The notes below the pieces were generated by a model. That model was not told the origin of the DNA, made no database searches, and saw only the letters and a program-made list of their open reading frames with translations. A stretch of DNA of 64,000 nt, from the NCBI GenBank assembly GCA_018666775.1, contig JABIXC010000010.1, positions 124,001-188,000 on the forward strand. Reading direction: 5' to 3'. This DNA comes from Rhodospirillales bacterium (GTDB taxonomy: Bacteria; Pseudomonadota; Alphaproteobacteria; SMXQ01). Position numbers and translations under genes: made by a program. Positions 2,496-63,707 of the stretch are shown in pieces (position 1 is the first letter of the stretch; each line of letters opens with the position of its first letter).

Positions 2496-3032
2496 ATGGT
2501 CAGGCTAACAAAGCGAAAGATGACAAGGGCCATGAGTGACACAAGCGAACTTGTTCCCGAAGCCCAGGCAGCGATTAAATGTGCTGCAAATGGGGGGGAT
2601 GTCGAATTTGATTCCGAAACCAGTGTCGGGTATTTATTGCGCGACACGTACCGGGCATTTACGAAAATTCTCCAAGCTCGAATTTCCGCCCATGGCGTCA
2701 CCATTGGTCAGTGGTATTTTCTTCGTGTCTTGTGGGAAGAAGACGGATTAACCCAGCGCGAATTATCCCAACGTGTGGGCATGATGGAGCCGACCACGGT
2801 GACCGCGCTGAATGGTATGGAAAAACGGGATTATGTGAAGCGTGTGCGCAACACCGACGACAAGCGCAAGGTCAATATTTACCTGACCAAAAAGGGCCGT
2901 GCCCTGCGCAATGTTTTATTGCCCCATGCCATTGATGTTAATATTAGTTCGGTCCAAGGCGTATCCGTTGAGGATGTTGAAACCATTCGTCGCGTGCTTC
3001 ATACCATGCAACAAAATCTGGGTACGCTGTAG
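2496..3032 (+). CDS. MarR-family transcriptional regulator
   Basis: Predicted winged-helix DNA-binding repressor of the MarR family, up to 178 residues. The recognition region LTQRELSQRVGMMEPTTVTA is followed by the beta-wing NTDDKRKVNIYLTKKGRAL, the classical MarR signature. The N-terminal 40 residues are a variable extension; ATG codons at 2520 and 2532 are alternative starts, and none of the three has a good ribosome site. It is followed at 44 bases by the class II aldolase gene and preceded by two palindromes, so it is probably an autoregulated, ligand-responsive regulator of the neighbouring catabolic genes. The ligand cannot be read from the sequence. Confidence 0.9.
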   Translation: MVRLTKRKMTRAMSDTSELVPEAQAAIKCAANGGDVEFDSETSVGYLLRDTYRAFTKILQARISAHGVTIGQWYFLRVLWEEDGLTQRELSQRVGMMEPTTVTALNGMEKRDYVKRVRNTDDKRKVNIYLTKKGRALRNVLLPHAIDVNISSVQGVSVEDVETIRRVLHTMQQNLGTL

Positions 3033-3076
3033 CGCCAACGCATTTAATTCCAAACGTTATTTCCAAGGAGACAATA

Positions 3077-3880
3077 ATGACCACCGCAAATGCGGGTTCT
3101 AATTCTGATGCTGTTATCACCGGGTACCGGGTGCAATTGGCTGCCCTGACACGATTGTTGCACAAAGAAGGAATTCTTACCTATTCAGGCCATGCCAGTA
3201 TTCGTATTCCGGGCCGCGATGCCTTTATGATTCAATCCATCAACGACAGCCGTGCGGGCATTAATCCTGAGGGGTTGTTGATTTGTGATTTTGATTGCAA
3301 TCTTTTAGAAGGCCCCGCCGGTGACCGTCCGCCCGTTGAGGCACATATTCATGCCCAAATTCTGCGCGCGCGCCCCGATATTGAAACCGTGGTTCATACC
3401 CATTCTGAATTGGCGGCAATGTTCACAATGATCGAAGGCGTTGAATTGGCCTTGATGAAAAGCCACGCCCAGCGTTGGAAGTCAGGGGTGCCCATCCATG
3501 GTGATCCCAGCCATATCTTGTCGGCACGCCAAGGCCAGGAACTGGCAAAGACCCTTGGCGATAATAACGGTGCGTTGTTGCGTGCCCATGGCGGGGTTTT
3601 GGTGGCCGAAAGTCTGCCCGCACTTTTGGTGGATGCCGTTCATTTTGAAGAAAATGCCAAGGCCCATTATCAGGCGGCGACCATCGGCAAGGTGAACCCT
3701 CTCACCCGCGAAGAGCTGGATCTGATTGCTGTCACCAACAACAACCGTGAACAGCATTGTTACAAGCTGTGGAGCCATTATGTCGGCATGGCGCTGGACG
3801 ATGGCACCCTGCCCCAAGACTGGAATGAACATTTATGGTCAAGCGTGAATGCCAATGCCAAGCATAAAAATCAGGGATAA
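3077..3880 (+). CDS. Class II aldolase/adducin-family protein, possible decarboxylase
   Basis: Zinc-dependent class II aldolase fold, 267 residues. The catalytic glutamate is probably E88 (PVEAHIH) and the metal ligands H107 and H109 (VVHTHSELAAMF) with H171 (LLRAHGGVL). Members act as fuculose-phosphate-type aldolases or, in aromatic pathways, as hydroxyphthalate-type decarboxylases; sequence alone does not decide which. No phosphate-binding signature is obvious to me. A strong AAGGAG ribosome site precedes the ATG. It is the second gene of the MarR-led operon, followed at 28 bases by a TauD-like dioxygenase, which suggests retro-aldol cleavage or decarboxylation in a catabolic pathway. Confidence 0.88.
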   Translation: MTTANAGSNSDAVITGYRVQLAALTRLLHKEGILTYSGHASIRIPGRDAFMIQSINDSRAGINPEGLLICDFDCNLLEGPAGDRPPVEAHIHAQILRARPDIETVVHTHSELAAMFTMIEGVELALMKSHAQRWKSGVPIHGDPSHILSARQGQELAKTLGDNNGALLRAHGGVLVAESLPALLVDAVHFEENAKAHYQAATIGKVNPLTREELDLIAVTNNNREQHCYKLWSHYVGMALDDGTLPQDWNEHLWSSVNANAKHKNQG

Positions 3881-60072: not shown

Positions 60073-60243
60073 ATGCAGAAATATATTTGTGGTGATTGCG
60101 ATTATATCTACGACCCTGCAAAAGGGGACCCGACCCAAAAGATTGCGCCGGGGACATCCTTTGATGACCTGCCCGATACCTGGGAATGCCCGGAATGTGG
60201 TGTCGGCAAAGAAGAATTCTATCCGATCATCGAAAGCAATTAA
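60073..60243 (+). CDS. Rubredoxin
   Basis: A 56-residue ORF beginning [20 protein letters not shown]. The two metal-binding pairs are CGDC at residues 6-9 and CPEC near 39-42 ([10 protein letters not shown]), the classical rubredoxin Fe(Cys)4 site, and the family's [16 protein letters not shown] block is intact. It is a small electron carrier, commonly a partner of alkane hydroxylases or of reductive enzymes. Here it lies between the cupin and MsrP genes; a link to MsrP is possible but unproven. Confidence 0.95.
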
Positions 60244-60353
60244 TCAAAACCCCGTGACAGTGTGTCTTTGGCGCATTGTCACGGGTGTTCACAAAACTGT
60301 GCATTGCAGTAAAGGGTGAAACCCGTATCCTCCCTATAACGGAGGATTTGACC

Positions 60354-61349
60354 ATGCACATCATCAAGAAGCCGGGCTGGGCGCTGCCTGAAAGCGCTGT
60401 TACACCAGAACATATTTACAATGACCGTCGTCAATTGCTGAAGGGTTTGGCCGCCGGGCCGATTTTGGCAGCGACGGCACCGCTGTTGGTGGCCTGTGAT
60501 GGTGGTGATGACGGTGCCAATGCCAAGGCAGCCGATATCAAAGACCCAACGGCGGGCCTGTATCCTGTGAGCCGGAATTTGCGCTACCGGGTGGACCGCA
60601 AGATGACGGCGGAATCTGATGCCATCGAATACAATAATTTTTATGAATTTGGGTCCCATAAATCTATTTTCAAAGCAGCCCAAAAACTTCCCATTCGCCC
60701 CTGGACCATCCGCATTGATGGCATGGTGGATAAGCCGTTCGACATCGATATCGACGGGTTGTTGAAAAAAATGCAACTGGAAGAACGGGTCTATCGCTTC
60801 CGCTGCGTCGAAGCCTGGGCCATGACCGTGCCGTGGTCTGGCTTTCCGTTAAAAGCATTGGTGGATTTGGCGAAGCCAATGTCGGGGGCAAAATACCTGC
60901 GCATGGAAACGTTCAAGAACCCTGATATTGCGCCGGGCCAAAAACAGCATTGGTATCCCTGGCCCTATATCGAAGGCCTGACCATGGCTGAGGCCCGCAA
61001 TGAAATGGCCTTTATTGCCACCGGGCTTTATGGAAAGCCGATCCCCAAACAAAACGGGGCACCGTTGCGTCTTGTGGTGCCATGGAAATACGGGTTCAAG
61101 AACATCAAATCCATTACCCGCATCAGCTTCACCGATAAACGTCCCAAAACGTTCTGGGAAGAAATTCAGGCATCGGAATATGGGTTCTGGGCCAACGTTA
61201 ATCCCGAAGTTCCTCATGCCAGATGGAGCCAGGCCACAGAAAAACTGCTGGGTGAAGGCATCCGTGTGCCAACCAAAATGTTCAATGGTTACGAAGAATT
61301 TGTCGCCAGCCTGTACAAGGACAAAGCGGGCGAAGACCTTTATAAATAG
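60354..61349 (+). CDS. msrP: Protein-methionine-sulfoxide reductase catalytic subunit MsrP
   Basis: Periplasmic molybdopterin enzyme (YedY) that repairs oxidised methionines, 331 residues. The start is the ATG at 60354, nine bases after GGAGG; the longer frame from 60276 lacks a ribosome site. A twin-arginine motif (NDRRQLLKG, R25/R26) precedes the hydrophobic signal. The molybdenum ligand is probably C151 in RFRCVEAWAM. Its usual membrane partner MsrQ is not in the window, so the electron donor is open; the rubredoxin gene lies 110 bases upstream. Confidence 0.95.
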   Translation: MHIIKKPGWALPESAVTPEHIYNDRRQLLKGLAAGPILAATAPLLVACDGGDDGANAKAADIKDPTAGLYPVSRNLRYRVDRKMTAESDAIEYNNFYEFGSHKSIFKAAQKLPIRPWTIRIDGMVDKPFDIDIDGLLKKMQLEERVYRFRCVEAWAMTVPWSGFPLKALVDLAKPMSGAKYLRMETFKNPDIAPGQKQHWYPWPYIEGLTMAEARNEMAFIATGLYGKPIPKQNGAPLRLVVPWKYGFKNIKSITRISFTDKRPKTFWEEIQASEYGFWANVNPEVPHARWSQATEKLLGEGIRVPTKMFNGYEEFVASLYKDKAGEDLYK

Positions 61350-61521: not shown

Positions 61522-61551
61522 AAAAAAAAGCCGGTTCCCGAAGGAACCGGC
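61522..61551 (-). terminator. Strong rho-independent terminator
   Basis: On the minus strand a 9-bp stem GCCGGTTCC/GGAACCGGC (61530-61551) encloses the stable tetraloop TTCG and is followed by eight T (61522-61529). This is a textbook terminator for a transcript that enters from the right. The 172-base stretch 61350-61521 next to msrP shows nothing else. Confidence 0.93.
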
Positions 61552-61680
61552 AAGTCTAACAGGGAGGCTTCACGTCTGGGAGACGTCGGACCTCACCAAA
61601 TACGCGGGAGGCCCGTGATCCAGGCCTTAGCCTGGAAACGCTTTCGGCGGGATAGGGGTAAACCGCCGTAAGAACACCGT
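61522..61680 (-). ncRNA. Probable small structured RNA next to the LysR gene
   Basis: No ORF explains this minus-strand stretch, yet it ends in a strong terminator and folds into several small hairpins: CGGCGG…CCGCCG, CCAGGC-TAAG-GCCTGG and ACGTCT-CCC-AGACGT. Three CTCCC motifs (near 61565, 61580 and 61606 on the plus coordinate) could pair with ribosome-binding sites, as in AbcR-type sRNAs, which in rhizobia are encoded near the LsrB/VtlR regulator. The GGTGAGGTCCG and GAAGCC segments recall 6S RNA. Family is undecided; the 5' end is a guess. Confidence 0.55.
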
Positions 61681-61722
61681 AAAAATAGGGTCTGGTGGTA
61701 AAACTTCCAGTGCCAATACAAC

Positions 61723-61755
61723 AACATAGCCATGCACACAGTGCATGGCTATGTT
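61723..61755 (-). terminator. Hairpin after the LysR gene
   Basis: A 14-15-bp perfect stem around ACATAGCCATGCAC with a 3-base loop lies 38 bases past the LysR stop. On the minus strand it is followed by TTGTTGTATT, a moderate T-rich tail, so it probably ends the trxB-lysR transcript before the small RNA. Confidence 0.65.
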
Positions 61756-61792: not shown

Positions 61793-62683
61793 TTAGAACC
61801 GGGTTTCGCTGATTTTACCCAAGAGGAAATCACGGAAAACAGCGACTCGTTTGGATTGGCGCAGTTCTTCTGGATAGACAAAATAGCTGTCATAGGTCGG
61901 CCCTTCCAGTTCTGGCAGAATGCGGACCATGTTGCTGATTTGGCGGACGGTGTAATCGGGCAGGGCAGCAATGCCCACCCCCGATTGCACGGCGCGATAG
62001 ATGCCGTAGATGTTGTTGACCTTCAAGGTGTTGTTGGGCGTGACGCCAGCTTTTTTGACGGCTTTTTCAAGCCAGTTAATGTGCGCCGTGGGTGGGTGAA
62101 GGGCTTCGCCGTAAACGACCAGGTTGTGATTGCTTAATTCTTCGATGCTTTGGGGCATGCCATGGGCCTGAAGGTATTCAGGTGCCGCATAGACATGGTT
62201 GTGCATGGCCATGAGGGGGCGGCGCACCAAATCCGGCTGGCGTGGGGTGTTGAGCCGGATGGCAACATCGGCTTCGCGCATGCCAATATTGATTTCTTCA
62301 TCAGACAACAAAAGTGTCAGGGAAATATCGGGGTACAGATCGATGAATTCCTTGACCCTGGGGGTGAGCCAGATGGACCCCAGCGCCACGGTCGCGGTGA
62401 CCTTCAAGGGCCCGCTTGGCCGGTCCGTTGATTCAGACAGCTTGTTTTGGGTATCGGCAATTTTATCCACCACTTCGCGGCTGGTGGCGAACAGCAATTC
62501 CCCCTGTTCTGTTAAGACCAAGCCCCGGGCATGGCGGTGGAACAGGACCACATCCAGATCATGTTCCAGCGCAGAGATTTGTCTGGATATGGCCGATTGG
62601 CTGAGGTTCAGCGTTTCCCCGGCATGGGTGAAACTGCCTGCCTGGGCGACGGCGTGGAAGATGCGAAGTTTGTCCCAGTCCAT
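61793..62683 (-). CDS. LysR-family transcriptional regulator, LsrB/VtlR-like
   Basis: 296-residue LysR regulator. N-terminal helix-turn-helix (about 15-40; AGETLNLSQSAISRQISALE), linker helix, and a substrate-binding domain from about 90. It sits directly downstream of trxB with lrp on the far side, the order found at rhizobial lsrB and Brucella/Agrobacterium vtlR, which control envelope, redox and sRNA genes. The synteny suggests an orthologue; sequence identity cannot be measured here. AGAGAG ribosome site. Confidence 0.85.
   Translation of the reverse strand: MDWDKLRIFHAVAQAGSFTHAGETLNLSQSAISRQISALEHDLDVVLFHRHARGLVLTEQGELLFATSREVVDKIADTQNKLSESTDRPSGPLKVTATVALGSIWLTPRVKEFIDLYPDISLTLLLSDEEINIGMREADVAIRLNTPRQPDLVRRPLMAMHNHVYAAPEYLQAHGMPQSIEELSNHNLVVYGEALHPPTAHINWLEKAVKKAGVTPNNTLKVNNIYGIYRAVQSGVGIAALPDYTVRQISNMVRILPELEGPTYDSYFVYPEELRQSKRVAVFRDFLLGKISETRF

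Positions 62684-62717: not shown

Positions 62718-63707
<990 letters not shown>

Follow-up and report, generated by a model that had tools for sequence, protein, structure and literature searches.

The described RNAs closest to the one presented here are AbcR1 and AbcR2 (ar15, RF02345) of Rhizobiaceae and Brucellaceae, SorY (RF02651) and SorX (RF02784) of Rhodobacter, and the suhB/MmgR/SisA group (alphaR8, RF00519). AbcR contains the motif M1, CUCCCA (PMC5461406), and is situated after trxB-lsrB/vtlR. In rhizobia and Brucella this ribosome-blocking type of sRNA is activated by LysR proteins of the VtlR/LsrB type. For the regulator VtlR a box of the form GCAT-N3-TG-N3-T is supported by EMSA (PMC7486931), and in S. 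meliloti the VtlR box was placed at -61 to -49 (PMC8844928). SorX is released by cleavage of a host mRNA, and SorY has its own promoter and a mapped start, in R. sphaeroides at position 1,632,642 (PMC6238624). Genes of alphaR8 normally adjoin the FGase gene (PMC12559287). In our search of the literature no paper linking AbcR with SorY was found, the two having been studied separately.

Here, we analyse a window of 64,000 nucleotides from a Rhodospirillales bacterium (contig JABIXC010000010.1, positions 124,001 to 188,000), whose minus strand contains a gene-free stretch at 61522-61680. We suggest, with a probability of roughly 0.84, that 61677-61522 encodes an LsrB-activated, Hfq-type trans-acting anti-Shine-Dalgarno sRNA, the counterpart of AbcR1/2 and SorY at a shared trxB-lsrB-sRNA locus. 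Gene anatomy as well as the conservation of structure, position and an upstream palindrome were demonstrated computationally (features are compiled in Table 1).

On the minus strand trxB is followed by lysR, the inverted repeat, the gene-free stretch and the terminator. Among the open reading frames checked no plausible gene covers 61522-61680 on this strand. As the first-pass annotation had stated, the stretch ends in a UUCG-loop terminator with eight T: GCCGGUUCC-UUCG-GGAACCGGC forms nine perfect pairs at 61551-61530 and is followed by the T-tract at 61529-61522. A stable fold is predicted for 61690-61522, a chain of hairpins with -70.9 kcal/mol, whereas shuffled sequences average -51.6 (z -4.72; none of 200 shuffles as stable). 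Its three CTCCC motifs are all present on the minus strand (61610-61606, 61582-61578 and 61566-61562), but the first one is predicted to be buried in a stem (unpaired probability ~0.02) and is not conserved. Only the second and the third are conserved in relatives and predicted to be accessible, with a predicted unpaired probability of 0.76-0.93 for the CTCCC inside the block 61552..61571. The RNA's 5' half is conserved only among close relatives. Convergent with the sRNA lies msrP (plus strand, 60352-61349), coding for the methionine sulfoxide reductase catalytic subunit. An msrP-like sequence also occurs just 3' of several related loci (e.g., L170, L191 and L196), which suggests that the conserved neighbourhood around trxB may extend to msrP. 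Upstream of msrP a small rubredoxin-like open reading frame (60074-60241) with two CxxC pairs was observed, for which NCBIfam gave no match.

Table 1. Features of the trxB-lysR-sRNA locus and the basis of their assignment (positions in the window)
Feature	Position	Strand	Basis
trxB, thioredoxin reductase, upstream of lysR	62718..63707	-	TIGR01292 above cut-off
LysR-type regulator, LsrB/VtlR homologue without cysteine	61793..62683	-	PDB 9HH1 match, identity
Palindrome ATGCACTGTGTGCAT, core of a 15-bp inverted repeat (61755-61723); predicted LsrB/VtlR operator, centre ~-62 from the inferred start	61732..61746	-	conservation
Predicted -35 box CTGGAA, 16 nt ahead of -10	61705..61710	-	inference from related intergenic regions
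Predicted -10 box CTATTT	61683..61688	-	CTATTTT/CTATCTT at the equivalent place in close relatives; inference
Predicted sRNA transcript, ~156 nt	61522..61677	-	terminator, fold and promoter inferred from related intergenic regions; start inferred
Conserved 3' module, ~72 nt: CUCCCA hairpin, single-stranded CCUCCCUGUU, terminator	61522..61593	-	covariance model R2
Hairpin ACGUC-UCCCA-GACGU, holds CUCCCA (61582-61577)	61572..61586	-	sequence; stem covariation
Mostly unpaired block, GAAGCCUCCCUGUUAGACUU; putative anti-Shine-Dalgarno seed	61552..61571	-	CCUCCCUGU invariance; predicted accessibility
Intrinsic terminator, UUCG loop, eight T	61522..61551	-	sequence; compensatory changes in relatives

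The comparison of the whole window with Rfam revealed nothing at gathering score. At E<=10 the best Rfam match of the stretch was suhB/MmgR with 35.3 bits (cut-off 41), besides SorY with 31.8 (cut-off 111), SorX with 28.7 (cut-off 46.6) and BjrC1505 with 16.7 bits (cut-off 50). With ar15 (criterion >=40 bits) the locus was unmatched at E<=10 in the search of its own genome, where this family gave weak chance-level matches elsewhere only (best 20.3 bits). Membership of ar15, suhB, SorX, SorY or BjrC1505 was rejected because all scores stay below the Rfam cut-offs. Thus, the covariance search that the first-pass annotation had proposed for suhB/AbcR and 6S RNA leaves suhB below threshold and both ar15 and 6S without a match at this locus. 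The same genome possesses a separate true suhB/MmgR copy (G000:C7:33299-33373, 61.5 bits) and a separate BjrC1505 RNA (G000:C18:41685-41817, 51.5 bits), both above cut-off, so the RNA of the stretch has to be regarded as a further CUCCC RNA and not as the MmgR orthologue.

In a DNA search the 3' part of the RNA was detected in 21 of 41 genomes, mostly just downstream of a LysR homologue. The module common to relatives comprises the hairpin ACGUC-UCCCA-GACGU, GAAGCCUCCCUGUUNNACUU and the terminator. An alignment of 40 sequences from LysR-linked loci shows CCUCCCUGU to be invariant. Two-sided changes are found in 8 of 12 pairs of hairpin and terminator, values reached by none of 500 shuffles, and the terminator stem is conserved less strongly than either the CUCCCA hairpin or the unpaired CCUCCCUGUU. 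The covariance model R2 was built from 40 LysR-linked loci including the present one; its structure was set by hand and checked by pair counts, as the automatic structure of RNAalifold missed the CUCCCA stem. At this locus, a training sequence, R2 yields 85.7 bits (E ~1e-22 in the window), which is the best score in window and genome. The model favours the LysR-linked class by construction, and with this bias it gives 17-89 bits in 65 of 100 LysR loci across the class, 29-41 bits at SorY loci, at most 32 bits (mostly below 25) at the tested alphaR8 loci and no more than about 15 bits at the tested AbcR loci. From these scores we conclude that the module RNA is, on sequence grounds, a class of its own with SorX and SorY as nearest neighbours. 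One locus (L134 in G255, 2590-3190) has three tandem module copies downstream of a single LysR gene, which parallels the tandem of AbcR1 and AbcR2. In L184 and L186 (G254, G128) the RNA is longer, and several additional CTCCC motifs precede the module.

The position of the RNA is that of AbcR. Rhizobiaceae LsrB genes were located with a query taken from the alignment to PDB 9HH1, the LsrB of A. tumefaciens, and in Agrobacterium and Ensifer AbcR (ar15, 75-121 bits; 120.7 bits in Agrobacterium) is found at the equivalent position. Both RNAs follow trxB-lsrB, both have CUCCCA in a hairpin and a second anti-Shine-Dalgarno segment before the terminator, although the linker motif M2 of AbcR (GUUCCC) is replaced by CCUCCCUGUU, and a palindromic LsrB-type site lies ~65 bp upstream of AbcR (predicted centre ~62 bp in the window). 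In contrast with AbcR, which is often tandem, the window RNA is present in single copy and shows no covariance match with ar15; owing to this failed test we do not assign it to the ar15 family despite its AbcR-like place and presumably AbcR-like mode of action. The earlier proposal of an AbcR-like anti-ribosome-site sRNA tied to LysR is supported by the position, the conserved VtlR-type palindrome and the M1 hexamer, with the qualification that the covariance search does not place the RNA in ar15.

SorY is likewise found directly downstream of a LysR homologue with the same palindrome and has a near-identical CCUCCCUGUUNGACUU and terminator. It differs in the lack of a CUCCCA hairpin, in its RpoH-type promoter, in the absence of trxB beside LysR (in the Rhodobacteraceae loci checked) and in the far too low SorY score of the window RNA. 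Among 80 genomes from this family a single SorY match exceeded the cut-off, G091:C4:1632645-1632727, and since its position fits the published SorY start, G091 was taken as R. sphaeroides. There, a LysR homologue (45% identity) is located upstream of SorY and ATGCGCATAGCGCAT lies in between, with its centre at -75 relative to the mapped start. LysR adjoins the RNA in 29 of 30 SorY-like loci, which were picked by SorY score and represent a biased sample; in one of these 29 LysR is present only as a contig-end fragment. SorX has the CCUCCCUGUU core and the terminator in common with the window RNA, and relatives of the latter score up to 42.6 bits with its model.

The next minus-strand gene had been assigned to LysR proteins of VtlR/LsrB type, and it is indeed an LsrB homologue in trxB-lsrB order; trxB is located upstream of lysR in most related loci, too. 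Its best PDB match is 9HH1 (A. tumefaciens LsrB/VtlR) with 330 bits, the next PDB match having 115, and its identity with A. tumefaciens LsrB is ~50% (78% over the first 60 residues). Residues C144 and C273 of LsrB were proposed as redox sensors (PMC11975290). The window protein has valine at both positions and contains no cysteine at all, which means that the rhizobial thiol-sensing model cannot apply to it. Of 100 homologues from the class 55 are cysteine-free, and valine occupies the C273 position in most of the class sample. LsrB was called unique to Rhizobiales (PMC11975290), whereas VtlR was described as conserved in the class (PMC7486931); our data agree with the latter. In two records titled Bacillus subtilis and Arenimonas (L286, L242) the lsrB genes share 69% and 93% identity with the query from A. 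tumefaciens, which probably reflects contamination or mislabelling.

A sample of 190 alphaproteobacterial genomes (thresholds E<=1e-65 for LysR and E<=1e-7 for the RNA) contains LysR in 106, the RNA in 78 and both in 71 genomes. LysR is thus present in 71 of 78 genomes with the sRNA versus 35 of 112 without it (Fisher p 2e-17, uncorrected for relatedness among genomes). The RNA lies at most 600 nt downstream of LysR on the same strand in 56 genomes; in a further 5 it is 2-6 kb away, again on the same strand. At E<=1e-7 no such RNA was detected in 35 of the 106 LysR genomes, some of which carry divergent versions. In one genome (G037, locus L018) the sRNA directly follows trxB, LysR is missing and no clear palindrome is left, and in another (G038) the RNA is sited away from lysR.

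Between the LysR stop and the RNA the palindrome ATGC-N7-GCAT, a site of the LTTR T-N11-A type, is found with no more than one of its 8 positions deviating in 56 of 59 linked loci (41 perfect), compared with 12.9% (0.9% perfect) of dinucleotide shuffles. It is perfectly kept upstream of two RNAs distant from LysR (L013 and L021) but not above chance in 15 alphaR8 loci. Within a single window about three such sites are expected by chance, and the counts of both the operator and the VtlR box are at chance level, so the weight of the palindrome rests on its conservation. The same palindrome precedes ar15/AbcR in Agrobacterium, Rhizobium, Ensifer, Hoeflea and Brucella. Relative to the start of ar15 its centre is at -65 in 6 of 7 first copies and at -67 in Brucella. 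The published VtlR box corresponds to its right half, and the half-site in the window, GCAT-GGC-TA-TGT-T, matches 6 of 7 fixed positions of this box. A lysR terminator at the inverted repeat 61755-61723 was considered and rejected; as both strands lack a T-tract and the ATGC-N7-GCAT core is a conserved site before the sRNA, the repeat is read as operator.

From these data we infer transcription, LysR binding, Hfq dependence and targets as follows. The neighbouring LsrB/VtlR-type regulator would bind ATGC-N7-GCAT ~62 bp upstream of the start and activate the promoter, as deduced from the position of the palindrome and the EMSA-supported VtlR box. The RNA would display two anti-Shine-Dalgarno segments, CUCCCA in the hairpin loop and CCUCCCUGUU in the single-stranded linker before the terminator. 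Together with Hfq, whose gene is encoded in the genome, it would pair with ribosome-binding sites of several mRNAs and lower their translation. Judging from AbcR, SorX and SorY, the targets are probably transporter mRNAs.

Other explanations could account for parts of these observations. Being on the same strand downstream of lysR, the RNA could be a 3'-UTR-derived sRNA cut by RNase E from the trxB-lysR mRNA, as its relative SorX is cut from a host mRNA (PMC6238624). We regard this as unlikely, since lysR and the RNA are separated by a conserved palindrome with promoter-like boxes, since SorY, which occupies the same locus, is equipped with a promoter of its own and a mapped start (PMC6238624), and since the RNA is retained in G037, where lysR is missing, and in G038, where it lies away from lysR. 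The persistence of the RNA where lysR is absent or distant also speaks against a mere terminator region of the trxB-lysR operon without any regulatory RNA. The strong terminator at the end of the stretch would suit such a function, the more so as the hairpin 61755-61723, lacking a T-tract, is a poor terminator itself; CCUCCCUGUU and the CUCCCA hairpin are, however, better conserved than the terminator stem, and this explanation is very improbable.

A further alphaR8 (suhB/MmgR/SisA) paralogue that came to lie near LysR by accident would explain why RF00519 is the best Rfam match, and the CUCCCU core, the terminator and an anti-Shine-Dalgarno mode of action (predicted for the window RNA) are common to both; moreover, suhB and ar15 form one Rfam clan. 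Nevertheless, 35.3 bits remain under the gathering score, the true alphaR8 copy (61.5 bits) is located elsewhere, and R2 gives tested alphaR8 loci 32 bits or less. The genomic place differs too: alphaR8 genes usually stand beside the FGase gene (PMC12559287) with the palindrome at chance level, whereas the neighbours here are lysR/trxB and msrP, not the N-formylglutamate amidohydrolase gene. With the consistent LysR linkage and the predicted operator in addition, an accidental paralogue is improbable. The resemblance to 6S RNA, an impression of the first-pass annotation only, has to be abandoned: there is no 6S match at E<=10 and the fold is a chain of hairpins instead of one long bulged duplex, which leaves 6S RNA a negligible chance.

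On a wider view, trxB-lsrB-operator-sRNA could be an ancestral alphaproteobacterial module, in which AbcR, SorY and the window RNA are the same gene by position under one LysR, with bodies so diverged that they are classed in different families; the ancestral regulator would not have been a thiol sensor, and redox sensing would have arisen in the Rhizobiaceae branch. We consider the odds of this scenario to be even. The three RNAs may descend from one ancestral gene, or different CUCCC RNAs may have been recruited to the locus. Should the shared locus prove real, LsrB control is to be expected for SorY, many alphaproteobacterial genomes would gain an sRNA whose activator is predicted, and the regulators without cysteine would raise the question of which signal was read by the ancestral LsrB.
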